Source: Pseudopyrenochaeta lycopersici
Lineage: Eukaryota > Ascomycota > Dothideomycetes > Pleosporales > Pseudopyrenochaetaceae
Reading direction: 5' to 3'
DNA length: 64,000 bases
NCBI GenBank assembly: GCA_003313425.1
Contig: NHZP01000037.1
Span: 62,001 to 126,000, forward strand
Below the pieces are notes generated by a model. The model had not been told where the DNA came from. It was given only the letters and a program-made list of their open reading frames with translations, and ran no database searches. The translations under genes and the position numbers were made by a program. Every line of letters starts with the position of its first letter. Position 1 is the first letter of the stretch. Shown here in pieces: positions 1-46,340 of the stretch.

Positions 1-231
1 TCTGTGCAAGGATTAGAGGATCTGTACGGTTCTCGCTGGCGTTAGAAGCACAGTGAGCAGGTGTTCTATGGGCGGCGGAAGGTTATTATTGATGAAGTTC
101 GGAGACGGCAGGCACAGGGTATGAGTATAGGCGCCGCAGTGGAGGAAGTAGAGCTGGTTCGGCAACGGGGTCAATTGTCGCTCTATCAGCTGTACCAGCT
201 ACTTAACAAGCAGAAAAAGTGCGCTTCGTAG
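1..231 (+). pseudogene. GCR1_C-domain gene fragment (Crypton-type), 3' end
   Basis: The frame running to the stop at 229-231 encodes YGSRWR, then an in-frame TAG at 43-45, then FYGRRKVIIDEVRRR and a helical tail. This pattern (Y-G-S-x-W-R, then F-x-x-R-R-K-x-I-I) is typical of the GCR1_C DNA-binding domain found at the C-terminus of fungal Crypton-type and GCR1-like proteins. The internal stop makes it a pseudogene. The 5' part lies outside the window here, but is visible in the mirrored copy beyond 26874. Confidence 0.6.
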
Positions 232-918
232 TGAATGCTATAAGCCATGCGCTCCTATATCGCCTATATTTTTGCCCCTATTTCAAGCACAACATGGTGC
301 AAAAGTTAAAAAAGGGGGCCCTCCGGGCGTGCCAAGACTTTTGGTATACCAGAGGTTATCCCAGAGGTTGGGGGTTCTCGCTTAATAACGCGCGTGATCT
401 CGGGAACAAATCGACCCCCATATAACTCGTAATTATTACGCCAAGCAGTGGTAAGGCGGTCATTTGCCGAATAATTATGCATAACGTTTCGCACTAGCCA
501 GGAGTAGATGCGCTTTAATTAGAAGTATTAACTAGGGTGGCGATCGCGCATAAATTTGCGCGCTACAGTAAATATAAGGCTGATAATAACCTTCCAGCAT
601 TACAGTAAGTATTTTAGCCTTAGGTAAGACTTTTTTAAGTATTTAAGGGTAGTAAAAGCTTAATAGTAGCACTCTAAGTTAGAGAAGAGACACTTTTATA
701 GCCCTCTAACGAGTCTCTCTGCGCGTTAAGCGCGAAGGTAACGATGCGCACGTATTTTTTTAGTAGGAATAGTTATAAATGTGTAAAAGTAGGCACAGCA
801 CACGACTTATAGAGAATTTAACCTATTATTAACGTGTGCGCGGAATTACAGTCGCTTGAAGTTCAAGTACCCCTTGTATTTTGCGGCACGGTGGGTTTTG
901 CGCGACCCAGGGATGGAC
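232..918. other. Non-coding interval with a MITE-like remnant at about 538-918
   Basis: No supported gene is present. From about 538 (GGCGATCGCGCAT) to 918 (GGGATGGAC) the sequence has the same head and tail signatures as the 383-bp repeat at 10171-10553. The tail motif GCGGCACGGTGGG followed by GGATGGACATTA matches the ends of pogo-type elements elsewhere in the window. The Copia element has inserted inside this tail: the last bases, ATTA, lie beyond its 3' LTR at 7041. The mirror copy is 25957-26643. Confidence 0.45.
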
Positions 919-1037
919 TGTCAAACATCACAGTGACTGAAACAGCAATATGTGACAGGGGCCGTGGGCGTATATATAAGAGTGAGGTACCACGCCTGTA
1001 GGAAAAACAACAATGAACACAATCACTTGCTTCAACA
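919..1037 (+). repeat. 5' LTR of the Copia element, with TATA box and short uORF
   Basis: The LTR is only 119 bp, short for the family. It contains a TATA-like stretch TATATATAAG at 971-980, about 34 bp before an ATG near its end. That ATG opens a 10-codon reading frame that closes with TGA inside the primer-binding region. The same ATG in the 3' LTR opens into flanking DNA. The sequence is identical to the LTR at 6917-7035. Confidence 0.93.
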
Positions 1038-1051
1038 GGTTATGAGCCCGG
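1038..1051 (+). other. Primer-binding site matching the initiator Met-tRNA anticodon arm
   Basis: Directly after the 5' LTR the sequence GGTTATGAGCCCGG is complementary to a GGGCTCATAACC segment, which reads as the anticodon stem-loop of initiator Met-tRNA (CAT anticodon). Drosophila copia and yeast Ty5 are known to prime from the half-tRNA cut in this loop rather than from the tRNA 3' end. The match is seen in the sequence; the priming mode is inferred from those relatives. Confidence 0.7.
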
Positions 1052-1355
1052 GATCGCACGCGACAAATTTGAAACTATATCTACAGCTAAGCTTCCGCAG
1101 CAAGTGATATACTTATTAGCAAGGATACTGACACATATAACCTAAGCTAGTACACCAATGAGAGCTCAAAACGGAGCGGATAACCCACTTTCCGCTCACA
1201 ATCACAAACATCACAAATGTGATATCACAGTGCCAACTCCTAGGACGCGTAAGCCAAAGGCGCACAAAGACAAAAAGAACTGAACCAGCCCTACAACACG
1301 CGTAGCAGGTCGGCTACATTAAGACGATGCGTGTAAAAGATGAAGATAGAAAAGG

Positions 1356-2138
1356 ATGTCAACTCCGACGACTAGATCAGGGACTGACCGTCTCGATTTA
1401 TCACTTCTATCCCCAAAGATACTGACACAAAAGAAACAGCGACAGAAAATTCATCGCTGGACAAAAGAGGAGTTGAACACTATATCTTATGTTCGGCTGC
1501 ACCGAAAGTGGACTTGGAGTCAAATTCAAAGGACGCTTTTCTCGTCAATGTCAGTTGGCTCAGTCAAAGTCGCGTTCCTCCGCCTACAGCCAGATGAGCG
1601 CATACGCCGTGCTTCAATTGTGAGCTCCCGCAACAAGACTATTGAGCACTTCGGATTAGGGAACGAGACAAATCAGGCCCTTTGTCATACTGCTGGTCCT
1701 ACTCAGCCTAAGCTCAGCGCTATACCAAACGCCCTGCCTACTAGAGCTAGGCATAAATATAGCATTAGTAACAATACTGCTCGCTATAACCTCCGACCAA
1801 ATAGACCTCCAGAATTCAAAGAGAACCAATCACGATACTTGGTCGACAGCCAGCGATTTCCCCACTTCTCTAGGTCCTGTAGAAAATATTCTAAACTGCG
1901 CAACACACACGACAAGGATTACTTGCCTCCATCGCATTCTCCTACGCCAGATTCGTCTGATCGTAGCCTCTCCATCACCTCCAGTACGCCAAGTGACGCA
2001 TCAAGCCTAGACCTTTTCGGTTTAGAGGTGCGCTCCGTCAACTCATCGAGTCACGCCTCTCCTGTCACCTCAAGCCCACTCAGCAACAGATCAACCTTGG
2101 AATTCTTCAGTGCGGATGAAGATCCAACCCCAAGATGA
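1356..2138 (+). CDS. Copia upstream ORF with SANT/Myb-like N-terminus
   Basis: This 260-residue frame lies between the 5' LTR and the polyprotein. Residues about 30-75 (KIHRWTKEELNTISY...RKWTWSQIQ) have the spaced tryptophans and basic helices of a SANT/Myb-like DNA-binding domain. The rest is rich in Ser, Pro and Arg, with no recognised domain. Its TGA stop (2136-2138) overlaps the ATG of the polyprotein (2135-2137) as ATGA, which suggests coupled termination and re-initiation, or a -1 shift. It could be a Gag-type protein or an accessory protein that guides target choice. Its role is not known, and most Copia elements lack such a frame. Confidence 0.7.
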   Translation: MSTPTTRSGTDRLDLSLLSPKILTQKKQRQKIHRWTKEELNTISYVRLHRKWTWSQIQRTLFSSMSVGSVKVAFLRLQPDERIRRASIVSSRNKTIEHFGLGNETNQALCHTAGPTQPKLSAIPNALPTRARHKYSISNNTARYNLRPNRPPEFKENQSRYLVDSQRFPHFSRSCRKYSKLRNTHDKDYLPPSHSPTPDSSDRSLSITSSTPSDASSLDLFGLEVRSVNSSSHASPVTSSPLSNRSTLEFFSADEDPTPR

Positions 2139-5100
2139 CTGATATTGCAAAATTTGAGCAATTTGGCCTTAACACATTTTATAATGCCATCCCAATACTC
2201 GATAATGCTAATGACTGGTTCAAATGGAACCAGAAGGTCAATGAATTCATTAAAATATCTACTGTTGCTGAAGACGGGGCGTCCCCGCCAGCAGAGGAAG
2301 GGGATGCACAACAATGGGAACGTCGCCAAAGGTTCTACTCAGCAATGATTACGGCAAAACTAACGCACAATGCTGCGCAGCGTATCAATGCTTTTAAAAT
2401 TCATCGAGTATATCCACTCCTCAATGCAGTCAAGGACAACTTCAAACCAGAAGGCTCTGGGACTTATGTCAACCTTCAACGACGATATATGTCTCTCACG
2501 CGAGAAAAGTGCGGGAGCGCCCAGGCGCTTGGAGCCGAGATCAGAGGGATTCACGCTGAGAAACTTTTACTCGATCCTGACTGTGTCACCTCAGAGATTG
2601 AGCGAACATTTTTCTTCTTGCATGCGCTGGGTGCCGAGTATGAAGGCTTTCGCGATTATATCTTTAGACAAATGGATCTTGTCAACGATAGAGATTCAGA
2701 TGGGAATATAGTTAAAGCGGCACCGACCTTCGATTACATTGAAAATAAAGCAATCGAGGAAGAGCATAGAAAAGGGCAGCTAAGAGAACGATCGAGCGTG
2801 GGGCAAACACTTCCTATCCTCGCGTTGATCCGAGGACCTGGTCAGAAGAATCTCATACCATCTTCGGATGGAACCACATGCCGAATCGAGATTGATAATG
2901 TACCCTATTGCTCCTTCTGCCGAAAGCCCTACCACGTCGAAACCGAGTGCTTTAGGAAAAATCCAAGACTAAAAGGCCAAGGGAAAGACGAAATGGGACA
3001 CAAGGCAAGGGCACAGGGCTCGCAAGCCAGTGGACACAAGCCGCCAAAGAGACCGTACTCTAGCAACGACGAGGACGACGATGCAGGTGGCCCAAAAGAC
3101 CCGAAGAAGCCTACCTTCATGGTAATGAAGGTTTCCGGAGAAGACGTCAATGCAGCATTTGAAAAGGACATTGAAAACAACTGCACCACTGTCAGCCATA
3201 CCCTCGCGATGATGGCCACTAAGATGCTCCCAATTCGCGACGCTTGGATCGTCGACAGCGGCTGTGCTCAGCATGTGTGCAACAACGCCTCGAAGTTTGT
3301 CCAAATAGGCACATATCATGGGCCTGCACTCAGGAGCGTTGATGCATCCACATCTCCCTCAGGAGTAGGAACGATCAATATTCTATGCAATTCACACGGC
3401 AGAAGAAGATGGCTTATTCTTGATAACGTCCTCTTTGTCCCATCTGCGCATGCAAACCTTATATCCGTGCCGCAGCTGCTCGAGCGCGGAGCTAAGGTCG
3501 AATTCTCTAGCAAGGGCGCCAGTATACGCAATAAGTCAAGTAAGAGGAGCTCATATACTGCAAGCAAATACCATGGCGTTTATGCGCTCGACCTATGGAC
3601 AAATCTTTCTTTTCCAGCCTACCATGTCAGCCCACAATTGACGCTTTGGCACAACCGACTGGCTCATCTGAGCGATTCAAACCTACGGCGGCTCAAAAAG
3701 CAAGCCTATGGCATTCGAGATGTAGAGCCACGAGAACCATGCAAGCCATGCCTTCAGGGGCGAATGATCGAAAAGCCACACAACTGCTCAGGTCGGAAGG
3801 GGGAATTTCCAATGGAACTCCTCCATATGGACGTCGCAGGCCCATTTGATGAGGGTCTCGATGGCAGTCGCTACTGGCTTACCATCGTTGACGACTCGAC
3901 TGGCTGGATCGAAGTCATCCCTATACCACGACGGCAGGGATTTGTCATTGAATCGTTGCGCTTCTTTCTTGACCACAATGAGCGCCCTGAACGGAAGTGT
4001 AGACGGATACGACTTGATCGAATCCCTGAACAAGTGGGAGAAGAAATGAAATTCATCCTATATTCCCGGGCGATTCAGCCTGAGGTTACAGGTGTAGATC
4101 AGCACCAACAGAATGGCGTGGCTGAAAGAGCCCATAAGACAATATATGATCGAGTTGGACCTACACTAGCACACGCAAAGCTTCCATCGAAGTTCTGGCC
4201 AGAGATAGCTCGAACGGCTGCATATCTCTCGAACCGATCGCCCTCGTCAAAGCTTCAGATGACACCATACCAGGCATGGTACGGCGAAAAGCCTGATTTA
4301 TCACGACTAAGGGTGATCGGGTCGAGGGGGGAATACCTGGTCCCACCAAAGCAGAGGAAGAAGCTTACTGAGCCGCGAACAAGACCATGCATATTATTAG
4401 GCTATGAGGGGAACACCAATTACCGCATCCTACTAGAAGATGGAAGGATCGTTGGAACCCCAAATGCCGAATTCCAAGAAGCCCTTATGACTTCCTCCAC
4501 ACAGACGAGACTAGATGTGGGAGCCAAACAAGATGGCTTACCTGAGGCAACGGCTGCTGCCCCAGGGGGGAGTGTGACGGTGGGGCTATTAAACCAACCG
4601 TCGGTAAGTATACGGCAAGCATCCGTGCCAGCCTCTGGACGTCATGCGTCCGTGGCAGCACCGGAACAGGCCATGTCTGAAACGAGCGCCGGGGACTCGC
4701 AAATACTACCTCGGGCGAGCACCAAGGACTCGCAAGTACTACCTTGGGCGGGCGACGGGGACTCGCAAATACTACCTCGCGCGAGTGACGATGACTCGCA
4801 AACACTACCTCGACCGAGTGACGATGACTCGGGAGAAGGAGCGCCGTCCCAATCGAGTGACGATGACTCGCAGCCAGTTGCTGAACAGGGAGACAGGACC
4901 TTGTCGCCTTCTAGGAGTGACGATACCTTTGGCTCATTTTCAGATGTTTCCGAAGGAGACGATTCACTACCTAATGGCGGCCAGCAACGGGACGACGCTC
5001 GACACGATCAAGCTTGGGGAGAACGGCAACGATATCCGGGACACCACCTTGATCGCACAGTTCATGAGGTGAGGCAACAAGCCTTAGAATATCACCCTGA

Positions 5101-6763
5101 ACTCAGAATCAGGGCCCCGCAGGCCACATCAGATACATCCGAATACAGCATGGAAGAGCTTGCACTGATGGATGTACCTGAAGGCAACGTACTCCCAACG
5201 TTCTTAACAGTAGCTGCGGAAGAAACAGAGCCCTTTGAACCAAAAACTCTTCATCAAGCGAAGAATGACACGAGCTGGCCTGAATGGGAGAGGTCTATGC
5301 TTGAAGAGGTCAACTCGCTCAAACAGAACAAAACGTGGGAGCTCGTCGACCATCCTAGAGACAGACGAGTTCTCAGTGGCAAATGGGTCTTCAAGCTGAA
5401 AAGAGGATCGCATGGAGAAGTAATCCGCCACAAAAGTAGGTGGGTTGTAAGAGGCTTCACACAAGAAGAAGGCATCGACTATGACAAGACATTCGCCTCT
5501 GTAGTGAAGCCAATGAGCTACAAGGCCCTATTTGCCATCGCAGCCGCATTAGGTCTCGAGATCGAACAAATGGACGTCAAGACCGCCTTCTTATACGGCG
5601 ACATTGACCACGAGATCTACGTTGAGCAACCCCACTACATGGGGGATGGCACACCAAGGGTCTGCAAACTTCGAAAGGCACTTTACGGCTTAAAGCAAGC
5701 GCCTCGCATATGGTATCAAACTCTAACCAACTTCCTGCGCGGCGTCGGCTTTGAGCCAATCAATGCTGACCTCAGTATCTTTGTGCGAAACAATATGTAC
5801 ATTGCGGTGTACGTGGATGACCTATTGATCGTCGGTCCAAGCATTGCAGAGATAAAAAGGATAAAGAGAGCCCTTCGCAACCGTTTCCAAATGACAGACC
5901 TTGGACCCTGCAGCTATTATCTCGGGATGTCTATCCAACGAGACCGTCAAAACAGGATACTTTACCTAAGCCAAGAGGCCTACATTAACAAGGTTGTCCA
6001 TCAATTCGGACTCAGCGACTGTGCCCCTATCAGCACACCGATTGAAACATCACCACCAACAGAAAACAGTCCAGAATACCGCTGTCCCCTTGAACAGAGA
6101 ATTGAATATCAACGGATTGTAGGATCGCTAATGTACATCATGCTTGGTACTAGGGGGGACATAGCATACGCGGTATCCATGGCGAGCCGGCACTTAGCAA
6201 ACCCAGGACCACAGCATATGAAGCTCGCACGACGCATCCTGAGGTACCTTAAAAGCACGTGGAGCCTCAGGCTCACGTACAAGGGCCATCTACAGATGTT
6301 GAAGGGATACACGGACGCAGACTGGGCCGGCTGTCATGACACACGGCGGTCAACCGCCGGATACCTGTTCAACATCGGAAGCGGAGCCATCAGCTGGCAA
6401 TCCAAGCGCCAGAGCGTTGTCGCCCTGTCAACCTGCGAAGCCGAATTCATGGGACAGACGCAGGCAACTAAAGAGGCAATCTGGCTGAGAAGGCTCCTCA
6501 ATGAGCTCAACCTAAGCCAAGGAAGGGTCGCGACCATCATCTGTGGCGACAACCAAGGAGCCATCGCCCTATCCTCGAATCCGCAATACCACTCACGAAC
6601 GAAGCATATGGAGATTCAGCGCAAGTGGCAAGGAGAGGTTCAAAAGGCTGGGACAGTTGAATTGAAGCACATCCCAACTGCGGAACAAATTGCCGATGGG
6701 TTCACCAAACCCCTTGCACGAGACAGATTCGAGTCGTTTCGGCGAGGGTTAGGGATTGAGTAA
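2135..6763 (+). CDS. Copia Gag-Pol polyprotein
   Basis: The frame is 1542 residues and carries the standard Copia order. It has a Gag region (about 1-240), a CCHC knuckle (CSFCRKPYHVETEC, about 258-271) and an aspartic protease with DSGC (about 374). A GAG-pre-integrase His/Cys motif follows (LWHNRLAHLS...CKPC), then integrase (from HMDVAGP, about 564, to NGVAERA). An acidic linker with DSQILPR-type repeats (about 850-910) precedes reverse transcriptase (about 1040-1290, YVDDLL near 1226) and RNase H (YTDADWAG to AEF, from about 1391). The second integrase aspartate sits in RLDRIPEQ rather than the usual DNGGE, so integrase may be altered. No stop or frameshift interrupts it. It makes the proteins needed for cytoplasmic particles, reverse transcription and integration. 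Confidence 0.95.
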   Translation: MTDIAKFEQFGLNTFYNAIPILDNANDWFKWNQKVNEFIKISTVAEDGASPPAEEGDAQQWERRQRFYSAMITAKLTHNAAQRINAFKIHRVYPLLNAVKDNFKPEGSGTYVNLQRRYMSLTREKCGSAQALGAEIRGIHAEKLLLDPDCVTSEIERTFFFLHALGAEYEGFRDYIFRQMDLVNDRDSDGNIVKAAPTFDYIENKAIEEEHRKGQLRERSSVGQTLPILALIRGPGQKNLIPSSDGTTCRIEIDNVPYCSFCRKPYHVETECFRKNPRLKGQGKDEMGHKARAQGSQASGHKPPKRPYSSNDEDDDAGGPKDPKKPTFMVMKVSGEDVNAAFEKDIENNCTTVSHTLAMMATKMLPIRDAWIVDSGCAQHVCNNASKFVQIGTYHGPALRSVDASTSPSGVGTINILCNSHGRRRWLILDNVLFVPSAHANLISVPQLLERGAKVEFSSKGASIRNKSSKRSSYTASKYHGVYALDLWTNLSFPAYHVSPQLTLWHNRLAHLSDSNLRRLKKQAYGIRDVEPREPCKPCLQGRMIEKPHNCSGRKGEFPMELLHMDVAGPFDEGLDGSRYWLTIVDDSTGWIEVIPIPRRQGFVIESLRFFLDHNERPERKCRRIRLDRIPEQVGEEMKFILYSRAIQPEVTGVDQHQQNGVAERAHKTIYDRVGPTLAHAKLPSKFWPEIARTAAYLSNRSPSSKLQMTPYQAWYGEKPDLSRLRVIGSRGEYLVPPKQRKKLTEPRTRPCILLGYEGNTNYRILLEDGRIVGTPNAEFQEALMTSSTQTRLDVGAKQDGLPEATAAAPGGSVTVGLLNQPSVSIRQASVPASGRHASVAAPEQAMSETSAGDSQILPRASTKDSQVLPWAGDGDSQILPRASDDDSQTLPRPSDDDSGEGAPSQSSDDDSQPVAEQGDRTLSPSRSDDTFGSFSDVSEGDDSLPNGGQQRDDARHDQAWGERQRYPGHHLDRTVHEVRQQALEYHPELRIRAPQATSDTSEYSMEELALMDVPEGNVLPTFLTVAAEETEPFEPKTLHQAKNDTSWPEWERSMLEEVNSLKQNKTWELVDHPRDRRVLSGKWVFKLKRGSHGEVIRHKSRWVVRGFTQEEGIDYDKTFASVVKPMSYKALFAIAAALGLEIEQMDVKTAFLYGDIDHEIYVEQPHYMGDGTPRVCKLRKALYGLKQAPRIWYQTLTNFLRGVGFEPINADLSIFVRNNMYIAVYVDDLLIVGPSIAEIKRIKRALRNRFQMTDLGPCSYYLGMSIQRDRQNRILYLSQEAYINKVVHQFGLSDCAPISTPIETSPPTENSPEYRCPLEQRIEYQRIVGSLMYIMLGTRGDIAYAVSMASRHLANPGPQHMKLARRILRYLKSTWSLRLTYKGHLQMLKGYTDADWAGCHDTRRSTAGYLFNIGSGAISWQSKRQSVVALSTCEAEFMGQTQATKEAIWLRRLLNELNLSQGRVATIICGDNQGAIALSSNPQYHSRTKHMEIQRKWQGEVQKAGTVELKHIPTAEQIADGFTKPLARDRFESFRRGLGIE

Positions 6764-6916
6764 GGTTTATGGACTTATGCATAATAAATAACGTAAGTTG
6801 TCCGGGCACCCTTTCCTTCTTTTCCCGACATAGGGTTTTTTGAAGGTTTTGACGGGGCCTATACACTGTGACGAAGGGTCGATGGCGCTTCTGACGGAGT
6901 CATCATCGAGTGGGAG

Positions 6917-7035
6917 TGTCAAACATCACAGTGACTGAAACAGCAATATGTGACAGGGGCCGTGGGCGTATATATAAGAGTGAGGTACCACGCCTGTAGG
7001 AAAAACAACAATGAACACAATCACTTGCTTCAACA
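6917..7035 (+). repeat. 3' LTR of the Copia element
   Basis: This is identical to the 5' LTR over all 119 bp. Its internal ATG (7011) opens a frame that leaves the LTR in phase with the downstream LINE RNase H frame, creating a 536-codon chimeric ORF. The LTR promoter could therefore drive read-out transcription into flanking DNA. Confidence 0.93.
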
Positions 7036-8621
7036 TGGACATTACCCCTCATTTGTCTCGCCACACAGTGTGTCTCGCTACGCAGTGGGGGACGTTAGAA
7101 GAGGTCAGACGGAAGGCGACAAAGACTGTTAGTGCACTCAGCTGCCTCGGAGGTTCGACCTGGGGCATAACCTTTGCAGACATGCGGAAACTGTACGAAG
7201 CTACTGCACTTCCCCAGATGATGTACGCGTGCTCAATCTGGTCCAATGCTAGCATCAAGGGCAAGACATACACAAAGAAGACACTTAACGTCTTGCAAAG
7301 CATACAGGCAAGAGCGGCAAGGGCTATCTGTGGGGCGTTCAAGGCTACCTCCAGAGTGGCACTCGATGTCGAAGCATACCTTTTACCTATTGAACAACAG
7401 ATCTGGAAACACAACACGGACGTCATCACCCGACTTCTCTCGTGCAAGGGTATTGCAGATACAGCCGGCCTTCAGACAAGCAGCATGCAATCTACCACCG
7501 CAATAAGAAACCGCATCAGACACATCAACTCTTGGCAGAAGATCTACGACGACATGAAGAGCCAACACAGCCAGGGCTTCGACACGCAGGAGCCAATCCC
7601 ACCCTTCATAACCCCGACATGGCAAACTGGCCCCAGGACATACATAGACAAGAACGCCGACAAGGCACGGAGCCGGCACGACAGAGCGAATGAGACAGGT
7701 CAGAGCCTCAGCATCTACACAGACGGCAGCGGCATAGACGGTGAGATAGGCGCAGCAGCGGTATGCCCGCTCACCCAGCAGACTCGCACCGTACATATGG
7801 GATCAGACACAATCTCGACAGTATATGCCGCTGAGCTACAAGGTATAAGCCTAGCACTGCAGATAGCACGAACGTACGCAGAGCAAAGGGGCGAACGACG
7901 AAACGTCGCCATCTACACCGACAACCAGGCGGCCATCTGGTCTATAGCCAAAGCCGAGGGACGATCAGGAGCCTACATCCTCGAGGAGATCGCACGACAA
8001 GTCCAGGAGCTCCAGGATATGGGACGACCAGTAATAGTAAGATGGATCCCCGCCCACGTAGGAATCCCAGGAAACGAAGCTGCAGACAGAGCCGCCAAGG
8101 AGGCGACCGGATGGAGAGAAGATGGCCGCAGACGTCCGCCGGTAGGTGCGCCGCCTAGACTCCACCGGCTCAGAACAGCCGTCAAGCGATGGTGCAAGAC
8201 CCAGACAGAACGAGCGTGGAGAGCCAAGTGGCGAGCAGAGACAAAAGGTCGCGCGACATATCGACACACACCACTGTCTACCAAGAAGGTGCTCCAGCTC
8301 CACGAGGGACTCAGCAAACGACAGAGCGCGATGCTGGTGCAGCTGCGCACCGAGAAAATCGGCCTCAACGACTTTCTTTTTAGTCGAAGAGTACCAGGCG
8401 TCGCCAGCTCTCGCTGCCCGTGCGGCGAGAGGCGGCAGACCGTCGCTCACGTCCTCCTCCGCTGCAGGACGCACAAGGACCTCCGGAACCAGGTATTCGG
8501 CAACCTCTCTGGACGATATAACCACCGGGCCATCCTGAGCAAGCCACAGCTAGCCACCAAAGCCATCCAGTTTATAGAGCAGACGCAGATCCTTGGGCAA
8601 GGGGGGATCACAGACGCGTAG
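7011..8621 (+). pseudogene. 5'-truncated LINE ORF2: RT C-terminus plus RNase H, fused to an LTR start codon
   Basis: The open frame is 536 codons, but its first residues come from the Copia LTR and its next ones from a pogo-type terminal repeat (7036-7103). True LINE sequence starts near 7104. It matches the C-terminal part of Tad/I-like ORF2: a thumb region (LPQMMYACSIW), then RNase H with the catalytic set YTDGSG, AAELQG, YTDNQAA and the final D in NEAADRA, then a Cys/His motif CPCGERRQTVAHVLLRC. Endonuclease and the RT catalytic core are absent, so it cannot move by itself. The RNase H part looks undamaged. Related fragments are at 52071-53485 and 56621-57034. Confidence 0.8.
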
Positions 8622-9215
8622 ACGACAGCCAAGCGCTGGGGGGAGACTGTAGGTAAGCCTGTGAACGAGCAATGTCTATTTCTCCGTACCTGCATATGCC
8701 TTTCATGGGAAGTTCCCTTCATTTGAGTGATGTGCTTCCTTCCCATCGTGAAGCGCCTCTGCTTTGTACTTGCCCACGTGGAGCCAAAAGTGGCGCACCA
8801 GGATGCCTGATGCGGTCTTATTCTATGTATAGAGCATGTAAATGACAGTTGGAGATGAAGAAAATTCGTTTGAATCTATTTTTACACACTAGTCAGGTTC
8901 TGTGCATACGGTGCGGCGAAATAGTCCCCAGAAGGTCAGTTTCTGGGGGATTTAGAAACAAGGCGGCGCCTTGTGATTAGTACAGGCATTTCTAGGATGG
9001 GACAACCTTGAAAAGGCTCAACAGAGTACACCATATAGGCTCCCTAATGTATTTTAGATCGAAGAGAATCATCCAAGGAAGGTGCCTGTCTCGGGCCCTC
9101 GAAGGTCACAGGGTATATATTTCCTACCACGCATCGCGTTATCTAAACAGACACTCGTTCATTCCACCTATAACCTTATCCCCAGTTTCAAAGCCCAGCT
9201 CGGCACAGTTCAATA
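8622..9215. other. LINE 3' untranslated end and upstream region of the C2H2 gene
   Basis: Just after the RNase H stop the sequence GGGGGAGACTGTAGGTA recurs at the same place in the LINE remnants near 55530 and 56620, so this is LINE 3' UTR. The remainder, to 9215, shows no supported gene. It would contain the promoter of the zinc-finger gene. Confidence 0.5.
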
Positions 9216-18253: not shown

Positions 18254-19864
18254 CTACGCGTCTGTGATCCCCCCTTGCCCAAGGATCTGCGTCTGCTCTA
18301 TAAACTGGATGGCTTTGGTGGCTAGCTGTGGCTTGCTCAGGATGGCCCGGTGGTTATATCGTCCAGAGAGGTTGCCGAATACCTGGTTCCGGAGGTCCTT
18401 GTGCGTCCTGCAGCGGAGGAGGACGTGAGCGACGGTCTGCCGCCTCTCGCCGCACGGGCAGCGAGAGCTGGCGACGCCTGGTACTCTTCGACTAAAAAGA
18501 AAGTCGTTGAGGCCGATTTTCTCGGTGCGCAGCTGCACCAGCATCGCGCTCTGTCGTTTGCTGAGTCCCTCGTGGAGCTGGAGCACCTTCTTGGTAGACA
18601 GTGGTGTGTGTCGATATGTCGCGCGACCTTTTGTCTCTGCTCGCCACTTGGCTCTCCACGCTCGTTCTGTCTGGGTCTTGCACCATCGCTTGACGGCTGT
18701 TCTGAGCCGGTGGAGTCTAGGCGGCGCACCTACCGGCGGACGTCTGCGGCCATCTTCTCTCCATCCGGTCGCCTCCTTGGCGGCTCTGTCTGCAGCTTCG
18801 TTTCCTGGGATTCCTACGTGGGCGGGGATCCATCTTACTATTACTGGTCGTCCCATATCCTGGAGCTCCTGGACTTGTCGTGCGATCTCCTCGAGGATGT
18901 AGGCTCCTGATCGTCCCTCGGCTTTGGCTATAGACCAGATGGCCGCCTGGTTGTCGGTGTAGATGGCGACGTTTCGTCGTTCGCCCCTTTGCTCTGCGTA
19001 CGTTCGTGCTATCTGCAGTGCTAGGCTTATACCTTGTAGCTCAGCGGCATATACTGTCGAGATTGTGTCTGATCCCATATGTACGGTGCGAGTCTGCTGG
19101 GTGAGCGGGCATACCGCTGCTGCGCCTATCTCACCGTCTATGCCGCTGCCGTCTGTGTAGATGCTGAGGCTCTGACCTGTCTCATTCGCTCTGTCGTGCC
19201 GGCTCCGTGCCTTGTCGGCGTTCTTGTCTATGTATGTCCTGGGGCCAGTTTGCCATGTCGGGGTTATGAAGGGTGGGATTGGCTCCTGCGTGTCGAAGCC
19301 CTGGCTGTGTTGGCTCTTCATGTCGTCGTAGATCTTCTGCCAAGAGTTGATGTGTCTGATGCGGTTTCTTATTGCGGTGGTAGATTGCATGCTGCTTGTC
19401 TGAAGGCCGGCTGTATCTGCAATACCCTTGCACGAGAGAAGTCGGGTGATGACGTCCGTGTTGTGTTTCCAGATCTGTTGTTCAATAGGTAAAAGGTATG
19501 CTTCGACATCGAGTGCCACTCTGGAGGTAGCCTTGAACGCCCCACAGATAGCCCTTGCCGCTCTTGCCTGTATGCTTTGCAAGACGTTAAGTGTCTTCTT
19601 TGTGTATGTCTTGCCCTTGATGCTAGCATTGGACCAGATTGAGCACGCGTACATCATCTGGGGAAGTGCAGTAGCTTCGTACAGTTTCCGCATGTCTGCA
19701 AAGGTTATGCCCCAGGTCGAACCTCCGAGGCAGCTGAGTGCACTAACAGTCTTTGTCGCCTTCCGTCTGACCTCTTCTAACGTCCCCCACTGCGTAGCGA
19801 GACACACTGTGTGGCGAGACAAATGAGGGGTAATGTCCATGTTGAAGCAAGTGATTGTGTTCAT
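18254..19864 (-). pseudogene. Truncated LINE RNase H frame fused to an LTR start, right-arm copy
   Basis: This mirrors 7011-8621, with the same 536 codons. It has the RNase H catalytic residues and the C-terminal Cys/His motif, but no endonuclease and no RT core. The start codon is supplied by the Copia LTR at 19840-19958. Confidence 0.8.
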
Positions 19865-20111
19865 TGTTGTTTTTCCTACAGGCGTGGTACCTCACTCTTA
19901 TATATACGCCCACGGCCCCTGTCACATATTGCTGTTTCAGTCACTGTGATGTTTGACACTCCCACTCGATGATGACTCCGTCAGAAGCGCCATCGACCCT
20001 TCGTCACAGTGTATAGGCCCCGTCAAAACCTTCAAAAAACCCTATGTCGGGAAAAGAAGGAAAGGGTGCCCGGACAACTTACGTTATTTATTATGCATAA
20101 GTCCATAAACC

Positions 20112-23100
20112 TTACTCAATCCCTAACCCTCGCCGAAACGACTCGAATCTGTCTCGTGCAAGGGGTTTGGTGAACCCATCGGCAATTTGTTCCGCAGTTG
20201 GGATGTGCTTCAATTCAACTGTCCCAGCCTTTTGAACCTCTCCTTGCCACTTGCGCTGAATCTCCATATGCTTCGTTCGTGAGTGGTATTGCGGATTCGA
20301 GGATAGGGCGATGGCTCCTTGGTTGTCGCCACAGATGATGGTCGCGACCCTTCCTTGGCTTAGGTTGAGCTCATTGAGGAGCCTTCTCAGCCAGATTGCC
20401 TCTTTAGTTGCCTGCGTCTGTCCCATGAATTCGGCTTCGCAGGTTGACAGGGCGACAACGCTCTGGCGCTTGGATTGCCAGCTGATGGCTCCGCTTCCGA
20501 TGTTGAACAGGTATCCGGCGGTTGACCGCCGTGTGTCATGACAGCCGGCCCAGTCTGCGTCCGTGTATCCCTTCAACATCTGTAGATGGCCCTTGTACGT
20601 GAGCCTGAGGCTCCACGTGCTTTTAAGGTACCTCAGGATGCGTCGTGCGAGCTTCATATGCTGTGGTCCTGGGTTTGCTAAGTGCCGGCTCGCCATGGAT
20701 ACCGCGTATGCTATGTCCCCCCTAGTACCAAGCATGATGTACATTAGCGATCCTACAATCCGTTGATATTCAATTCTCTGTTCAAGGGGACAGCGGTATT
20801 CTGGACTGTTTTCTGTTGGTGGTGATGTTTCAATCGGTGTGCTGATAGGGGCACAGTCGCTGAGTCCGAATTGATGGACAACCTTGTTAATGTAGGCCTC
20901 TTGGCTTAGGTAAAGTATCCTGTTTTGACGGTCTCGTTGGATAGACATCCCGAGATAATAGCTGCAGGGTCCAAGGTCTGTCATTTGGAAACGGTTGCGA
21001 AGGGCTCTCTTTATCCTTTTTATCTCTGCAATGCTTGGACCGACGATCAATAGGTCATCCACGTACACCGCAATGTACATATTGTTTCGCACAAAGATAC
21101 TGAGGTCAGCATTGATTGGCTCAAAGCCGACGCCGCGCAGGAAGTTGGTTAGAGTTTGATACCATATGCGAGGCGCTTGCTTTAAGCCGTAAAGTGCCTT
21201 TCGAAGTTTGCAGACCCTTGGTGTGCCATCCCCCATGTAGTGGGGTTGCTCAACGTAGATCTCGTGGTCAATGTCGCCGTATAAGAAGGCGGTCTTGACG
21301 TCCATTTGTTCGATCTCGAGACCTAATGCGGCTGCGATGGCAAATAGGGCCTTGTAGCTCATTGGCTTCACTACAGAGGCGAATGTCTTGTCATAGTCGA
21401 TGCCTTCTTCTTGTGTGAAGCCTCTTACAACCCACCTACTTTTGTGGCGGATTACTTCTCCATGCGATCCTCTTTTCAGCTTGAAGACCCATTTGCCACT
21501 GAGAACTCGTCTGTCTCTAGGATGGTCGACGAGCTCCCACGTTTTGTTCTGTTTGAGCGAGTTGACCTCTTCAAGCATAGACCTCTCCCATTCAGGCCAG
21601 CTCGTGTCATTCTTCGCTTGATGAAGAGTTTTTGGTTCAAAGGGCTCTGTTTCTTCCGCAGCTACTGTTAAGAACGTTGGGAGTACGTTGCCTTCAGGTA
21701 CATCCATCAGTGCAAGCTCTTCCATGCTGTATTCGGATGTATCTGATGTGGCCTGCGGGGCCCTGATTCTGAGTTCAGGGTGATATTCTAAGGCTTGTTG
21801 CCTCACCTCATGAACTGTGCGATCAAGGTGGTGTCCCGGATATCGTTGCCGTTCTCCCCAAGCTTGATCGTGTCGAGCGTCGTCCCGTTGCTGGCCGCCA
21901 TTAGGTAGTGAATCGTCTCCTTCGGAAACATCTGAAAATGAGCCAAAGGTATCGTCACTCCTAGAAGGCGACAAGGTCCTGTCTCCCTGTTCAGCAACTG
22001 GCTGCGAGTCATCGTCACTCGATTGGGACGGCGCTCCTTCTCCCGAGTCATCGTCACTCGGTCGAGGTAGTGTTTGCGAGTCATCGTCACTCGCGCGAGG
22101 TAGTATTTGCGAGTCCCCGTCGCCCGCCCAAGGTAGTACTTGCGAGTCCTTGGTGCTCGCCCGAGGTAGTATTTGCGAGTCCCCGGCGCTCGTTTCAGAC
22201 ATGGCCTGTTCCGGTGCTGCCACGGACGCATGACGTCCAGAGGCTGGCACGGATGCTTGCCGTATACTTACCGACGGTTGGTTTAATAGCCCCACCGTCA
22301 CACTCCCCCCTGGGGCAGCAGCCGTTGCCTCAGGTAAGCCATCTTGTTTGGCTCCCACATCTAGTCTCGTCTGTGTGGAGGAAGTCATAAGGGCTTCTTG
22401 GAATTCGGCATTTGGGGTTCCAACGATCCTTCCATCTTCTAGTAGGATGCGGTAATTGGTGTTCCCCTCATAGCCTAATAATATGCATGGTCTTGTTCGC
22501 GGCTCAGTAAGCTTCTTCCTCTGCTTTGGTGGGACCAGGTATTCCCCCCTCGACCCGATCACCCTTAGTCGTGATAAATCAGGCTTTTCGCCGTACCATG
22601 CCTGGTATGGTGTCATCTGAAGCTTTGACGAGGGCGATCGGTTCGAGAGATATGCAGCCGTTCGAGCTATCTCTGGCCAGAACTTCGATGGAAGCTTTGC
22701 GTGTGCTAGTGTAGGTCCAACTCGATCATATATTGTCTTATGGGCTCTTTCAGCCACGCCATTCTGTTGGTGCTGATCTACACCTGTAACCTCAGGCTGA
22801 ATCGCCCGGGAATATAGGATGAATTTCATTTCTTCTCCCACTTGTTCAGGGATTCGATCAAGTCGTATCCGTCTACACTTCCGTTCAGGGCGCTCATTGT
22901 GGTCAAGAAAGAAGCGCAACGATTCAATGACAAATCCCTGCCGTCGTGGTATAGGGATGACTTCGATCCAGCCAGTCGAGTCGTCAACGATGGTAAGCCA
23001 GTAGCGACTGCCATCGAGACCCTCATCAAATGGGCCTGCGACGTCCATATGGAGGAGTTCCATTGGAAATTCCCCCTTCCGACCTGAGCAGTTGTGTGGC

Positions 23101-24740
23101 TTTTCGATCATTCGCCCCTGAAGGCATGGCTTGCATGGTTCTCGTGGCTCTACATCTCGAATGCCATAGGCTTGCTTTTTGAGCCGCCGTAGGTTTGAAT
23201 CGCTCAGATGAGCCAGTCGGTTGTGCCAAAGCGTCAATTGTGGGCTGACATGGTAGGCTGGAAAAGAAAGATTTGTCCATAGGTCGAGCGCATAAACGCC
23301 ATGGTATTTGCTTGCAGTATATGAGCTCCTCTTACTTGACTTATTGCGTATACTGGCGCCCTTGCTAGAGAATTCGACCTTAGCTCCGCGCTCGAGCAGC
23401 TGCGGCACGGATATAAGGTTTGCATGCGCAGATGGGACAAAGAGGACGTTATCAAGAATAAGCCATCTTCTTCTGCCGTGTGAATTGCATAGAATATTGA
23501 TCGTTCCTACTCCTGAGGGAGATGTGGATGCATCAACGCTCCTGAGTGCAGGCCCATGATATGTGCCTATTTGGACAAACTTCGAGGCGTTGTTGCACAC
23601 ATGCTGAGCACAGCCGCTGTCGACGATCCAAGCGTCGCGAATTGGGAGCATCTTAGTGGCCATCATCGCGAGGGTATGGCTGACAGTGGTGCAGTTGTTT
23701 TCAATGTCCTTTTCAAATGCTGCATTGACGTCTTCTCCGGAAACCTTCATTACCATGAAGGTAGGCTTCTTCGGGTCTTTTGGGCCACCTGCATCGTCGT
23801 CCTCGTCGTTGCTAGAGTACGGTCTCTTTGGCGGCTTGTGTCCACTGGCTTGCGAGCCCTGTGCCCTTGCCTTGTGTCCCATTTCGTCTTTCCCTTGGCC
23901 TTTTAGTCTTGGATTTTTCCTAAAGCACTCGGTTTCGACGTGGTAGGGCTTTCGGCAGAAGGAGCAATAGGGTACATTATCAATCTCGATTCGGCATGTG
24001 GTTCCATCCGAAGATGGTATGAGATTCTTCTGACCAGGTCCTCGGATCAACGCGAGGATAGGAAGTGTTTGCCCCACGCTCGATCGTTCTCTTAGCTGCC
24101 CTTTTCTATGCTCTTCCTCGATTGCTTTATTTTCAATGTAATCGAAGGTCGGTGCCGCTTTAACTATATTCCCATCTGAATCTCTATCGTTGACAAGATC
24201 CATTTGTCTAAAGATATAATCGCGAAAGCCTTCATACTCGGCACCCAGCGCATGCAAGAAGAAAAATGTTCGCTCAATCTCTGAGGTGACACAGTCAGGA
24301 TCGAGTAAAAGTTTCTCAGCGTGAATCCCTCTGATCTCGGCTCCAAGCGCCTGGGCGCTCCCGCACTTTTCTCGCGTGAGAGACATATATCGTCGTTGAA
24401 GGTTGACATAAGTCCCAGAGCCTTCTGGTTTGAAGTTGTCCTTGACTGCATTGAGGAGTGGATATACTCGATGAATTTTAAAAGCATTGATACGCTGCGC
24501 AGCATTGTGCGTTAGTTTTGCCGTAATCATTGCTGAGTAGAACCTTTGGCGACGTTCCCATTGTTGTGCATCCCCTTCCTCTGCTGGCGGGGACGCCCCG
24601 TCTTCAGCAACAGTAGATATTTTAATGAATTCATTGACCTTCTGGTTCCATTTGAACCAGTCATTAGCATTATCGAGTATTGGGATGGCATTATAAAATG
24701 TGTTAAGGCCAAATTGCTCAAATTTTGCAATATCAGTCAT
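20112..24740 (-). CDS. Copia Gag-Pol polyprotein, right-arm copy
   Basis: The 1542 residues are identical to the left-arm polyprotein, with Gag, CCHC knuckle, DSGC protease, integrase, YVDD reverse transcriptase and RNase H in order. Its ATG overlaps the stop of the upstream frame as ATGA. Confidence 0.95.
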   Translation of the reverse strand: MTDIAKFEQFGLNTFYNAIPILDNANDWFKWNQKVNEFIKISTVAEDGASPPAEEGDAQQWERRQRFYSAMITAKLTHNAAQRINAFKIHRVYPLLNAVKDNFKPEGSGTYVNLQRRYMSLTREKCGSAQALGAEIRGIHAEKLLLDPDCVTSEIERTFFFLHALGAEYEGFRDYIFRQMDLVNDRDSDGNIVKAAPTFDYIENKAIEEEHRKGQLRERSSVGQTLPILALIRGPGQKNLIPSSDGTTCRIEIDNVPYCSFCRKPYHVETECFRKNPRLKGQGKDEMGHKARAQGSQASGHKPPKRPYSSNDEDDDAGGPKDPKKPTFMVMKVSGEDVNAAFEKDIENNCTTVSHTLAMMATKMLPIRDAWIVDSGCAQHVCNNASKFVQIGTYHGPALRSVDASTSPSGVGTINILCNSHGRRRWLILDNVLFVPSAHANLISVPQLLERGAKVEFSSKGASIRNKSSKRSSYTASKYHGVYALDLWTNLSFPAYHVSPQLTLWHNRLAHLSDSNLRRLKKQAYGIRDVEPREPCKPCLQGRMIEKPHNCSGRKGEFPMELLHMDVAGPFDEGLDGSRYWLTIVDDSTGWIEVIPIPRRQGFVIESLRFFLDHNERPERKCRRIRLDRIPEQVGEEMKFILYSRAIQPEVTGVDQHQQNGVAERAHKTIYDRVGPTLAHAKLPSKFWPEIARTAAYLSNRSPSSKLQMTPYQAWYGEKPDLSRLRVIGSRGEYLVPPKQRKKLTEPRTRPCILLGYEGNTNYRILLEDGRIVGTPNAEFQEALMTSSTQTRLDVGAKQDGLPEATAAAPGGSVTVGLLNQPSVSIRQASVPASGRHASVAAPEQAMSETSAGDSQILPRASTKDSQVLPWAGDGDSQILPRASDDDSQTLPRPSDDDSGEGAPSQSSDDDSQPVAEQGDRTLSPSRSDDTFGSFSDVSEGDDSLPNGGQQRDDARHDQAWGERQRYPGHHLDRTVHEVRQQALEYHPELRIRAPQATSDTSEYSMEELALMDVPEGNVLPTFLTVAAEETEPFEPKTLHQAKNDTSWPEWERSMLEEVNSLKQNKTWELVDHPRDRRVLSGKWVFKLKRGSHGEVIRHKSRWVVRGFTQEEGIDYDKTFASVVKPMSYKALFAIAAALGLEIEQMDVKTAFLYGDIDHEIYVEQPHYMGDGTPRVCKLRKALYGLKQAPRIWYQTLTNFLRGVGFEPINADLSIFVRNNMYIAVYVDDLLIVGPSIAEIKRIKRALRNRFQMTDLGPCSYYLGMSIQRDRQNRILYLSQEAYINKVVHQFGLSDCAPISTPIETSPPTENSPEYRCPLEQRIEYQRIVGSLMYIMLGTRGDIAYAVSMASRHLANPGPQHMKLARRILRYLKSTWSLRLTYKGHLQMLKGYTDADWAGCHDTRRSTAGYLFNIGSGAISWQSKRQSVVALSTCEAEFMGQTQATKEAIWLRRLLNELNLSQGRVATIICGDNQGAIALSSNPQYHSRTKHMEIQRKWQGEVQKAGTVELKHIPTAEQIADGFTKPLARDRFESFRRGLGIE

Positions 24741-25519
24741 CTTGGGGTTGGATCTTCATCCGCACTGAAGAATTCCAAGGTTGATCTGTTGCTGAGTGGG
24801 CTTGAGGTGACAGGAGAGGCGTGACTCGATGAGTTGACGGAGCGCACCTCTAAACCGAAAAGGTCTAGGCTTGATGCGTCACTTGGCGTACTGGAGGTGA
24901 TGGAGAGGCTACGATCAGACGAATCTGGCGTAGGAGAATGCGATGGAGGCAAGTAATCCTTGTCGTGTGTGTTGCGCAGTTTAGAATATTTTCTACAGGA
25001 CCTAGAGAAGTGGGGAAATCGCTGGCTGTCGACCAAGTATCGTGATTGGTTCTCTTTGAATTCTGGAGGTCTATTTGGTCGGAGGTTATAGCGAGCAGTA
25101 TTGTTACTAATGCTATATTTATGCCTAGCTCTAGTAGGCAGGGCGTTTGGTATAGCGCTGAGCTTAGGCTGAGTAGGACCAGCAGTATGACAAAGGGCCT
25201 GATTTGTCTCGTTCCCTAATCCGAAGTGCTCAATAGTCTTGTTGCGGGAGCTCACAATTGAAGCACGGCGTATGCGCTCATCTGGCTGTAGGCGGAGGAA
25301 CGCGACTTTGACTGAGCCAACTGACATTGACGAGAAAAGCGTCCTTTGAATTTGACTCCAAGTCCACTTTCGGTGCAGCCGAACATAAGATATAGTGTTC
25401 AACTCCTCTTTTGTCCAGCGATGAATTTTCTGTCGCTGTTTCTTTTGTGTCAGTATCTTTGGGGATAGAAGTGATAAATCGAGACGGTCAGTCCCTGATC
25501 TAGTCGTCGGAGTTGACAT
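24737..25519 (-). CDS. Copia upstream SANT/Myb-like ORF, right-arm copy
   Basis: The 260 residues are identical to the frame at 1356-2138, with the same tryptophan-spaced N-terminal domain and Ser/Pro-rich tail. It overlaps the polyprotein by four bases. Confidence 0.7.
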   Translation of the reverse strand: MSTPTTRSGTDRLDLSLLSPKILTQKKQRQKIHRWTKEELNTISYVRLHRKWTWSQIQRTLFSSMSVGSVKVAFLRLQPDERIRRASIVSSRNKTIEHFGLGNETNQALCHTAGPTQPKLSAIPNALPTRARHKYSISNNTARYNLRPNRPPEFKENQSRYLVDSQRFPHFSRSCRKYSKLRNTHDKDYLPPSHSPTPDSSDRSLSITSSTPSDASSLDLFGLEVRSVNSSSHASPVTSSPLSNRSTLEFFSADEDPTPR

Positions 25520-25956
25520 CCTTTTCTATCTTCATCTTTTACACGCATCGTCTTAATGTAGCCGACCTGCTACGCGTGTTGTAGGGCTGGTTCAGTTCTT
25601 TTTGTCTTTGTGCGCCTTTGGCTTACGCGTCCTAGGAGTTGGCACTGTGATATCACATTTGTGATGTTTGTGATTGTGAGCGGAAAGTGGGTTATCCGCT
25701 CCGTTTTGAGCTCTCATTGGTGTACTAGCTTAGGTTATATGTGTCAGTATCCTTGCTAATAAGTATATCACTTGCTGCGGAAGCTTAGCTGTAGATATAG
25801 TTTCAAATTTGTCGCGTGCGATCCCGGGCTCATAACCTGTTGAAGCAAGTGATTGTGTTCATTGTTGTTTTTCCTACAGGCGTGGTACCTCACTCTTATA
25901 TATACGCCCACGGCCCCTGTCACATATTGCTGTTTCAGTCACTGTGATGTTTGACA

Positions 25957-26643
25957 GTCCATCCCTGGGTCGCGCAAAACCCACCGTGCCGCAAAATACA
26001 AGGGGTACTTGAACTTCAAGCGACTGTAATTCCGCGCACACGTTAATAATAGGTTAAATTCTCTATAAGTCGTGTGCTGTGCCTACTTTTACACATTTAT
26101 AACTATTCCTACTAAAAAAATACGTGCGCATCGTTACCTTCGCGCTTAACGCGCAGAGAGACTCGTTAGAGGGCTATAAAAGTGTCTCTTCTCTAACTTA
26201 GAGTGCTACTATTAAGCTTTTACTACCCTTAAATACTTAAAAAAGTCTTACCTAAGGCTAAAATACTTACTGTAATGCTGGAAGGTTATTATCAGCCTTA
26301 TATTTACTGTAGCGCGCAAATTTATGCGCGATCGCCACCCTAGTTAATACTTCTAATTAAAGCGCATCTACTCCTGGCTAGTGCGAAACGTTATGCATAA
26401 TTATTCGGCAAATGACCGCCTTACCACTGCTTGGCGTAATAATTACGAGTTATATGGGGGTCGATTTGTTCCCGAGATCACGCGCGTTATTAAGCGAGAA
26501 CCCCCAACCTCTGGGATAACCTCTGGTATACCAAAAGTCTTGGCACGCCCGGAGGGCCCCCTTTTTTAACTTTTGCACCATGTTGTGCTTGAAATAGGGG
26601 CAAAAATATAGGCGATATAGGAGCGCATGGCTTATAGCATTCA
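25957..26643. other. Non-coding interval with MITE-like remnant, right-arm copy
   Basis: This mirrors 232-918. The pogo-like end GTCCATCCCTGGGTCGCGC lies directly beside the LTR, and the GATCGC head lies near 26325. No gene is supported. Confidence 0.45.
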
Positions 26644-27360
26644 CTACGAAGCGCACTTTTTCTGCTTGTTAAGTAGCTGGTACAGCTGATAGAGCGACAA
26701 TTGACCCCGTTGCCGAACCAGCTCTACTTCCTCCACTGCGGCGCCTATACTCATACCCTGTGCCTGCCGTCTCCGAACTTCATCAATAATAACCTTCCGC
26801 CGCCCATAGAACACCTGCTCACTGTGCTTCTAACGCCAGCGAGAACCGTACAGATCCTCTAATCCTTGCACAGACGGGCCACCTGTAAGACCTACCGTCC
26901 ACTCCCTCCACAGTTAGGGGACAGTTGTCACCGCGCGCGAGAGAACGTACGACGGTGGCGGCGCCGGCTGCAGCCGCAGCCGCAGCCGCTCCTGTTCCTG
27001 TTCTTACTCCAGCTCTGGCTCCGGCTCTGGCTGTAGCTGCTCCTAAGAGAAGAGCGCGGCGGCAGCAGCAGGCCTTACCGTCATTACTGCTAAAGCAGGC
27101 GTGGCAGAGCCAGAAGAAGCCGTTATCGTCGTATAACGCGTAGTAGGATGTAGCGTCAGGGAGATACGGCCCTCAAGCAAGTCCCCCAGCCGTATCTCGA
27201 TTCTGTTAAGCCGCTCTCTCGTTTCCGCACCCCAGTCGTTGACCTCTCGCGTAAGGCCCTACTATAGGATGCTCAGACGCTCAGCAATAGCAGGAAGCGT
27301 CTTCCGAATCTGTACTTCTTCAGGCTCCTCTACGTCTAGTAGCAAAAGCTCTACTTCCTT
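26644..27360 (-). pseudogene. GCR1_C-domain protein (Crypton-type), C-terminal part, interrupted by a MULE
   Basis: Read on the minus strand from 27360, the frame gives an acidic segment, an ERLNRIEIRLGDLL helix and a low-complexity linker. A GCR1_C domain follows (WREWTVGLTGGPSV, YGSRWR, stop, FYGRRKVIIDEV). Stops in the linker and at 26830-26832 show decay. The domain crosses 26874/26875 without disruption. A MULE starts at 27361, so the 5' part is missing or displaced. GCR1_C proteins of this kind belong to fungal Crypton-type tyrosine-recombinase elements or to GCR1-like regulators; which one cannot be decided from this part. Confidence 0.6.
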
Positions 27361-46338: not shown

Positions 46339-46340
46339 TA

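Follow-up and report, generated by a model that had tools for sequence, protein, structure and literature searches.

The HET-E protein of Podospora anserina combines its domains in the order HET-NACHT-WD40. More generally, fungal NOD-like receptors (NLRs) carry WD, ANK and TPR repeats with high internal conservation, in a paper whose main text makes no mention of transposition, inverted repeats or mobile elements (PMC4986451). For Sordariales, NLR number was reported to have no strong link to repeat-induced point mutation (RIP) or repeat control, which was read as diversification other than by tandem duplication, and the main text of that report mentions neither inverted repeats nor the word mobile (PMC12258605). 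One sesA-NACHT-WD40 NLR has been described on a Gaeumannomyces Starship (PMC12134995), Pyrenophora Starships are reported with heterokaryon-incompatibility and NACHT genes (PMC9594970), and a histone H3 gene was captured and multiplied between the terminal inverted repeats (TIRs) of a fungal hAT element (PMC6710886). Here we analysed a 64,000-nucleotide stretch of the Pseudopyrenochaeta lycopersici genome (contig NHZP01000037.1, positions 62,001 to 126,000; hereafter the window), in which a predicted HET-NACHT-WD40 NLR gene lies between long TIRs at the centre of a 33.6-kb palindrome. We consider it moderately likely that a family of small DNA transposons with long TIRs, many of them carrying one receptor gene (HET, HET-NACHT-WD40, HET-NB-ARC-TPR or NACHT-ankyrin), multiplies and shuffles the NLR repertoire, and that its opposed TIRs are hot spots for perfect inverted duplication, the palindrome being one product.

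The genome searched comprised 62.7 Mb in 188 contigs. C37 denotes the source contig, on which the window spans C37:62001-126000, and coordinates without a prefix are those of the window. On the minus strand of the palindrome's spacer, two long frames, one with HET and NACHT (13234-15579) and one with 12 WD40 repeats (11160-13166), join in frame over a predicted intron to give a 1440-aa protein with the P-loop GDPGKGKT and 12 VKIWD motifs. The inner 792 bp of each palindrome arm are the TIRs of a 6.5-kb element that carries this gene; both TIRs are identical and start with TAACGT. The element is made up as follows.

10172..16703, minus strand: NLR-carrying TIR element, 6,532 bp including the TA at each end, with identical 792-bp TIRs; its right side is common to C42:146926-148067

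10172..10963, plus strand: left TIR, with the terminus TAACGTGCATCCC..., the X module at 10172-10634 and the inner core GGCAACCCTGTGGCAGGAGCGGGTCGGC at 10936-10963

15912..16703, minus strand: right TIR, with the core at 15912-15939

13279..15537, minus strand: exon 1 of the predicted NLR gene, with HET, NACHT/NPHP3_N and GPIID_WHD domains and the P-loop GDPGKGKT

13224..13278, minus strand: intron of 55 nt, GT...AG, predicted rather than transcript-backed

11160..13223, minus strand: exon 2 of the predicted NLR gene, with 12 WD40 repeats in a 126-bp tandem array

Like the HNWD/HET-E-like NLRs of P. anserina, this gene unites HET, NACHT and WD40, and its 12 WD repeats are near-identical (12.1 copies of 126 bp with 92% matches at the DNA level); we take its domain order to be the architecture of HET-E-like NLRs. 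Unlike them, it is enclosed by long TIRs that have relatives around other HET/NLR genes. Protein matches to the first spacer open reading frame (ORF) reached 82% at best, with the Dothideomycetes Cenococcum geophilum and Lineolata rhizophorae at 79% each. For one conserved ORF the top protein match was at 65% and that from Boeremia exigua at 59%, so protein similarity points to a likely Dothideomycete source. A first-pass annotation of the window had called the 4.9-kb centre unique, which is correct locally, where it is unpaired, but not genome-wide: at the DNA level the HET-NACHT region has 40 places including itself (the best 40 of 152 candidates), the best others being on C52 (90%) and C34 (85%). 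We also considered inversion of the spacer as an expression switch and set it aside, since the gene and 374 bp upstream of it lie within the spacer, so that inversion alone should leave the gene unchanged.

The TIRs of the element have relatives elsewhere in the genome. On C52 and C34, too, the relatives are flanked by inverted copies of the innermost 28 bp of the arms, GGCAACCCTGTGGCAGGAGCGGGTCGGC. When up to 3 mismatches are allowed, this core has 22 matches genome-wide and its reversed control 0; seven convergent pairs, with 4.7-5.5 kb between partners, account for 14 of the 22. The outward sequences of the six pairs other than the window's are related to one another; over the best-aligned stretch, their TIRs are 98.5-100% alike in four cases and 74% alike in two (C25:185743 and C52). 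The 1.1-kb TIR at C37:48204-49300, called TIR-A, yielded 60 matches from the best 40 of 174 candidates, and because 22 of these start from base 1, they mark its terminus. The X repeat (10172-10634), which starts TAACGTGCATCCC, is the outer part of a second type, TIR-B, with 58 terminus matches, and adjoins TIR-A position 509 at three loci (C34, C5 and C73). In its identical 792-bp TIRs and the presence of its core at 22 sites, the window element resembles a Class II (TIR) DNA transposon.

A target site could be read for one related element. The element C51:268914-278305, which has TIRs of 1,164 bp, 99.9% alike, lies within a tandem array, and its site gag/TA...TA/cttag compared with gagTActtag in the neighbouring unoccupied unit reveals a TA target-site duplication. 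The window element is flanked by gcaaac/TA ... TA/gtttgc; these flanks are mirrored, so TA...TA is no proof of a target-site duplication there. On C42:146926-148067 the right side of the window element has a collinear counterpart, made up of 187 bp (95% identity) that run over the core from the inside, then 113 bp (90%) and 517 bp (89%) on the outside; the right inner junction is therefore not peculiar to this contig. Between C37:48204 and C51:268914 the TIRs are 99.4% alike. The former (C37:48204-56254), situated some 2 kb to the left of the palindrome, is of the TIR-A type and contains a gene with DUF7104 repeats; apart from a 1.1-kb insertion that only the right TIR has, its two TIRs are 99.8% identical. 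The element C51:268914-278305 itself contains, beside its HET gene, about 4.4 kb of tandem repeats with a 68-bp unit, 91-97% alike from one shift to the next. TIR-A termini also occur in eight short pairs, 233-694 bp apart, and a 560-bp pair of TIR-A termini at 45781-46340 (C37:107781-108340) is probably a non-autonomous relative, resembling a miniature inverted-repeat transposable element.

We opened 16 loci, namely the seven core pairs, seven loci from the TIR-A search, C42 (unpaired core) and C37:402613 (a TIR-B pair). The core-pair loci were found with the core from this NLR element and are hence a biased sample; C2 and C14, picked through TIR-A, also have an unpaired core match. Cargo domains were assigned by profile and, for C52 and C34:197084, by DNA similarity plus one NACHT match each. 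HET, NACHT/NPHP3_N or NB-ARC was present in 10 of the 16 loci, NLR-type repeats only in three and neither in three; the seven TIR-A-search loci divide into four, two and one. We take DUF7104 repeats to be NLR-type. The cargo by locus was as follows.

HET-NACHT: the window, C52, C34:197084, C25:388886 and C15:255170 (WD40 assigned by profile for C25, C15 and the window and by DNA match for the other two)

HET-NB-ARC-TPR: C34:352519 and C14:185262

HET in one ORF and TPR in the next: C25:185743

HET: C51:268914

NPHP3_N in one ORF and ankyrin repeats in the next: C51:71618

NLR-type repeats only: C37:48204 and C2 (DUF7104 repeats), C7 (TPR)

Neither: C25:256469 (HNH_2, DDE_3 and AhpC-TSA_2 ORFs; TIR-A element C25:256469-264321)

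Neither: C37:402613 (DDE_3 in both arms; three inner ORFs without known family)

Neither: C42 (187 bp of NLR leader beside an AnmK ORF)

C15 has one TIR only, and frames are broken in some loci (C25:388886 is fragmented, C7 has repeats only). Convergent terminus pairs of 1.5-12 kb numbered 14; C13:338488-342860, C29:369539-380999 and C31:340757-347065 were left out of the opening, C43:243906-248949 was judged by its inner HET match alone, and C34:347003-351364 and C37:58273-69097 look like chance or mixed pairings.

We then compared the two sides of each terminus, counting HET matches (150 scored of 520 candidates), 144 NACHT places (of 152 matches, with six second pieces and two unlisted ones left out) and 40 NLR DNA places (of 48, with 8 second pieces left out) within 4 kb. 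HET/NLR matches lay inside at 11 of 84 TIR-A termini and outside at 2 of 84; at core sites the figures were 12 of 22 inside and 2 of 22 outside, one of the latter being the element's own match, which starts 1 bp beyond the site. At 8 kb, TIR-A gave 13 inside versus 6 outside. Enrichment inside is thus seen with TIR-A and the core but not with TIR-B, the type of the window element, which is an objection to explaining the palindrome as built around an NLR-carrying element: HET/NACHT matches lay inside at 6 and outside at 8 of the 58 TIR-B termini within 4 kb, and at 8 kb the count was 8 versus 11. The TIR-B locus C37:402613 adds to this objection, as a scan of four of its ORFs revealed no NLR domain.

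Two of the loci contain DDE_3 ORFs, both of them promising as an autonomous transposase. For the one in C25:256469-264321, none of those of its relatives that were checked lies within the 14 convergent terminus pairs. The other is at the TIR-B locus C37:402613-about 412250, whose opposed arms (402864-404700 and 410163-411999) are 99.95% alike over at least 1,837 bp and each contain a copy of one DDE_3 ORF adjoining the X module. This ORF is bounded by 44-bp inverted repeats of its own and so may be a separate insertion rather than the family's own transposase.

With Starships the family would share the carriage of NLR/HET genes by transposons. The paired elements that we opened differ in their size of about 5.4-9.6 kb, with a single gene detected in most of them, in their long TIRs (792 bp for the window element, 1,164 bp for the one on C51) and in a TA duplication where readable. 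No DUF3435 captain was found in the 29 ORFs scanned, the genome as a whole not having been searched for DUF3435. As in the hAT capture of histone H3, a host gene lies between TIRs and has been multiplied; that case is described as a single gene with RIP-inactivated copies, 20-bp TIRs and 8-bp duplications (PMC6710886), whereas the elements here have long TIRs and at least five cargo architectures, several of which retain long open frames. NLR/HET cargo of Starships and gene capture by hAT are thus already in print. A TIR family carrying fungal NLR/HET genes was not reported among the literature matches listed, as judged by title and opening of the abstract, a coverage that excludes most subscription journals, and we regard this family as a more interesting result than the palindrome. 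The main text of PMC12222747 mentions none of inverted, palindrom-, ectopic or gene conversion.

Turning to the palindrome itself, the first-pass annotation had placed it at 1..26874, with arms free of differences in the stretches compared. Direct comparison of 1-10963 with the reverse complement of 15912-26874 agreed on the arms (0 differences in 10,963 bp) and on the palindrome, but the edge at 26874 proved to be an effect of where the window starts. With flanking contig sequence added, identity goes 3,356 bp further outward with 0 mismatches, to -3355 and 30230 in window coordinates. The arms, C37:58645-72963 and C37:77912-92230, are 14,319 bp each with 0 differences, and the palindrome totals 33,586 bp.

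1..10963, plus strand: left arm, in-window part; the arm starts 3,356 bp further left at C37:58645, and over its full length it matches the reverse complement of 15912-30230 at 100% identity

10964..15911, no strand: spacer, 4,948 bp, from sequence comparison

15912..30230, minus strand: right arm, complete, 14,319 bp, from sequence comparison

For a perfect 14-kb inverted repeat chance is no concern. Searched against the genome, arm stretches (1-3000, 7036-10400, 10400-11300 and 27300-30300; the Copia interior and 26875-27299 were left out) matched in full length only between the two arms. Identity breaks off sharply on both sides, and the outer flanks on left and right are unlike each other. 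The left outer edge adjoins a truncated X copy (X_out), and the first 70 bp beyond the right one have no other full match in the genome. Each arm begins, at its inner edge, at the end of the 28-bp TIR core and finishes, at its outer edge, 1 bp past the end of an element that we call T. An Rfam scan of the window gave 0 matches at gathering thresholds.

Could the structure be an assembly artefact, with one arm falsely duplicated or two haplotypes merged? Perfect identity over 14.3 kb of repeats, in a structure that rests on one assembly, is compatible with such an error, and the contig has other big near-perfect inverted repeats (C37:305036-319560, by coordinates, and C37:402864-411999), so the assembly may be prone to them. 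We nevertheless find this explanation distinctly unlikely in view of the two unlike outer flanks, the two unlike inner junctions, the collinear C42 counterpart of one of these, and the coincidence of the edges with element boundaries. In addition, both ends are internal to the contig (561,939 bp), neither lying at a contig end. The distinct spacer had already been advanced against a simple fold-back read artefact, an argument that holds and to which the two distinct outer flanks add strength.

From the element outward, the left arm contains an RNase H repeat, a TIR-A-type terminus, a Copia element, a 469-bp repeat (copies 92-100% alike) and T. The first-pass claim of intact transposons is sustained by the Copia element, mirrored in both arms with a single LTR difference.

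915..7035, plus strand, mirror 19840-25960: Copia long terminal repeat (LTR) element, with LTRs 915-1037 and 6913-7035 (122/123 identical) and a 1542-aa pol ORF

7043..7097, minus strand, mirror 19778-19832: terminus of an element of the same superfamily (TIR-A positions 1-55)

7096..8655, plus strand, mirrored in the right arm: repeat containing an ORF for RNase H (7011-8621), with seven more copies at 99-100% and others as low as 73%

27361..30229, no strand, mirror C37:58646-61514 left of the window: Mutator-like (MULE-like) element T, 2.87 kb, at the outer end of the right arm, with TIRs of 63-66 bp

Many copies of the RNase H repeat have the same start base, which in the arm follows directly at the end of the TIR-A terminus. 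The full ends of T read GGCTAGTGAG...CTCACTAGCC and its reading frames are short; from its TIRs and the length of its duplication we take it to be MULE-like. Of 10 further T copies retrieved, 5 are directly flanked by an exact 9-bp target-site duplication. T is therefore a genuine transposon, whose end marks the palindrome edge, the mirror stopping 1 bp past its outer terminus on both sides. These matching outer edges are also what one would expect if the whole 33.6 kb had moved as a composite transposon via the two outermost T ends. However, no 9-bp duplication surrounds the unit (the 9 bp past T, read outward, are CGCGCATAA on the left and CATTTGCCG on the right), and such a move would leave the internal identity of the arms unexplained, which makes it very improbable.

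Copies of T recur in two further structures. A second apparent large inverted repeat on the same contig, C37:305036-319560, has match coordinates that are mirror-symmetric about C37:312300; its symmetry rests on two T copies of equal score and two copies of the 469-bp repeat. C34:519312-527055 and C88:7932-15675 each combine an NLR match and a T copy with equal spacing and scores, an apparent segmental duplication.

The RIP indices TpA/ApT and (CpA+TpG)/(ApC+GpT) were 0.88 and 1.19 for the arm, 0.75 and 1.21 for the spacer, and 1.03 and 1.18 for T, the usual cut-offs being 0.89 and 1.03. By these two indices neither the whole arm nor the whole spacer has a clear RIP signature, and RIP was therefore dropped as an explanation or a clock for the palindrome.

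Considering the above results, we think, with slightly better than even confidence, that the 33.6-kb palindrome is a recent inverted duplication built around the NLR-carrying DNA element and seeded by its TIRs; that the palindrome is real and recent is probable. The observations at its base are an NLR gene between 792-bp TIRs, related TIRs around other HET/NLR genes, and a mirror-image 13.5-kb nest outside the TIRs. No mutation separates the arms, so the duplication would be young, and the TIR-NLR family would explain the position of the palindrome's centre. The first-pass annotation had offered a new inverted duplication or a structure kept identical by arm-to-arm conversion, and the former is the better-supported half, given that the arms show 0 differences and share their nested insertions and that the outer flanks are unlike. 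It had overlooked the symmetry around a TIR-bounded HET-NACHT-WD40 NLR element, the edge at a MULE-like terminus and the greater length of the arms.

In yeast, a break or single-stranded region near inverted repeats primes reverse copying of the flank (PMC10622511, PMC10164571). Here, a double-strand break may have occurred at one end of the NLR element, and the exposed TIR would have annealed to the opposite-facing TIR of the same element, on the same molecule or on the sister, by fold-back or strand invasion. Repair synthesis would then have copied the opposite TIR together with about 13.5 kb of its flank, up to the end of the template, a T terminus cut by transposase, and the new end would have been end-joined to the other side of the break. 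These steps would give every feature seen; the break, template and polymerase, as well as the mechanism and direction of copying, are what we infer from the end state, which is the part that is observed. C37:402613 is a parallel, where a nested insertion is likewise mirrored between the arms, with the same DDE_3 in the same place, and it seems that copying between arms, or duplication after insertion, occurred at least twice, in the palindrome and at this locus.

Several findings are at odds with a TIR-seeded duplication. The palindrome is known from one assembly, no transposase cut was observed, and the T edge could be a coincidence. The palindrome's own T copies have no target-site duplication, and 3 bp are absent at their inner end. 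T alone is high on TpA/ApT, although not on the other index, and the arm lies near the cut-off. Fold-back in the two yeast abstracts yields dicentric chromosomes and secondary rearrangements, unlike the interstitial duplication with both flanks kept that we find here (PMC10622511, PMC10164571). C42 shares the element's own TIR side only and so gives no direction of copying. Finally, X_out is 90.1% identical to the arm's X copy versus 89.6-91.4% to the other four compared, identities that give no support to X_out as the element's displaced left TIR.

We did not accept that C42 proves the right arm to be the original, as the shared part consists of the element's TIR and leader and may once have been on both sides. 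X_out (C37:58273, plus strand) and the TIR-A terminus (C37:69097, minus strand) converge as a mixed pair in the left arm, a possible argument for the left side being the older one.

An old palindrome held identical by arm-to-arm gene conversion would also show 0 differences over 14,319 bp, and sex-chromosome-type conversion palindromes likewise have large arms at least 99.9% identical. Near-identical TIRs in some relatives fit conversion as well (C51:268914, 99.9% over 1,164 bp; C37:402864-404700 and 410163-411999, 99.95% over 1,837 bp; four of the six other core pairs, 98.5-100%). Near-identity is not general, however, as the two core pairs at 74% (C25:185743 and C52) illustrate. Recent transposition accounts for the 99.4% TIR likeness between the elements C37:48204 and C51:268914, and C37:48204-56254 retains its private 1.1-kb insertion in one TIR. 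In the palindrome we found no arm-private change that would signal incomplete conversion, nor a visible conversion tract. We therefore consider upkeep by conversion unlikely, and the comparison with sex-chromosome palindromes made in the first-pass annotation finds no support here beyond size and identity.

The flanks gcaaac/TA ... TA/gtttgc, if joined, would make the centre of a spacerless palindrome, and the C51 relative duplicated TA. It could thus be proposed that the NLR element inserted into a pre-existing perfect palindrome with the central TA as its target. We find this quite improbable, because the insertion must have hit the exact centre of symmetry and because a spacerless palindrome with 13.5-kb arms would, as is generally known, be highly unstable.

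If the TIR-seeded duplication is correct, the palindrome would be an example from nature, in a eukaryote, of a perfect large inverted duplication delimited by the TIRs of one transposon and the end of a second, and its exact junctions would let fold-back and break-induced models be tested. A TIR family that carries NLRs would, for its part, give fungal NLR genes a direct means of spreading and multiplying.

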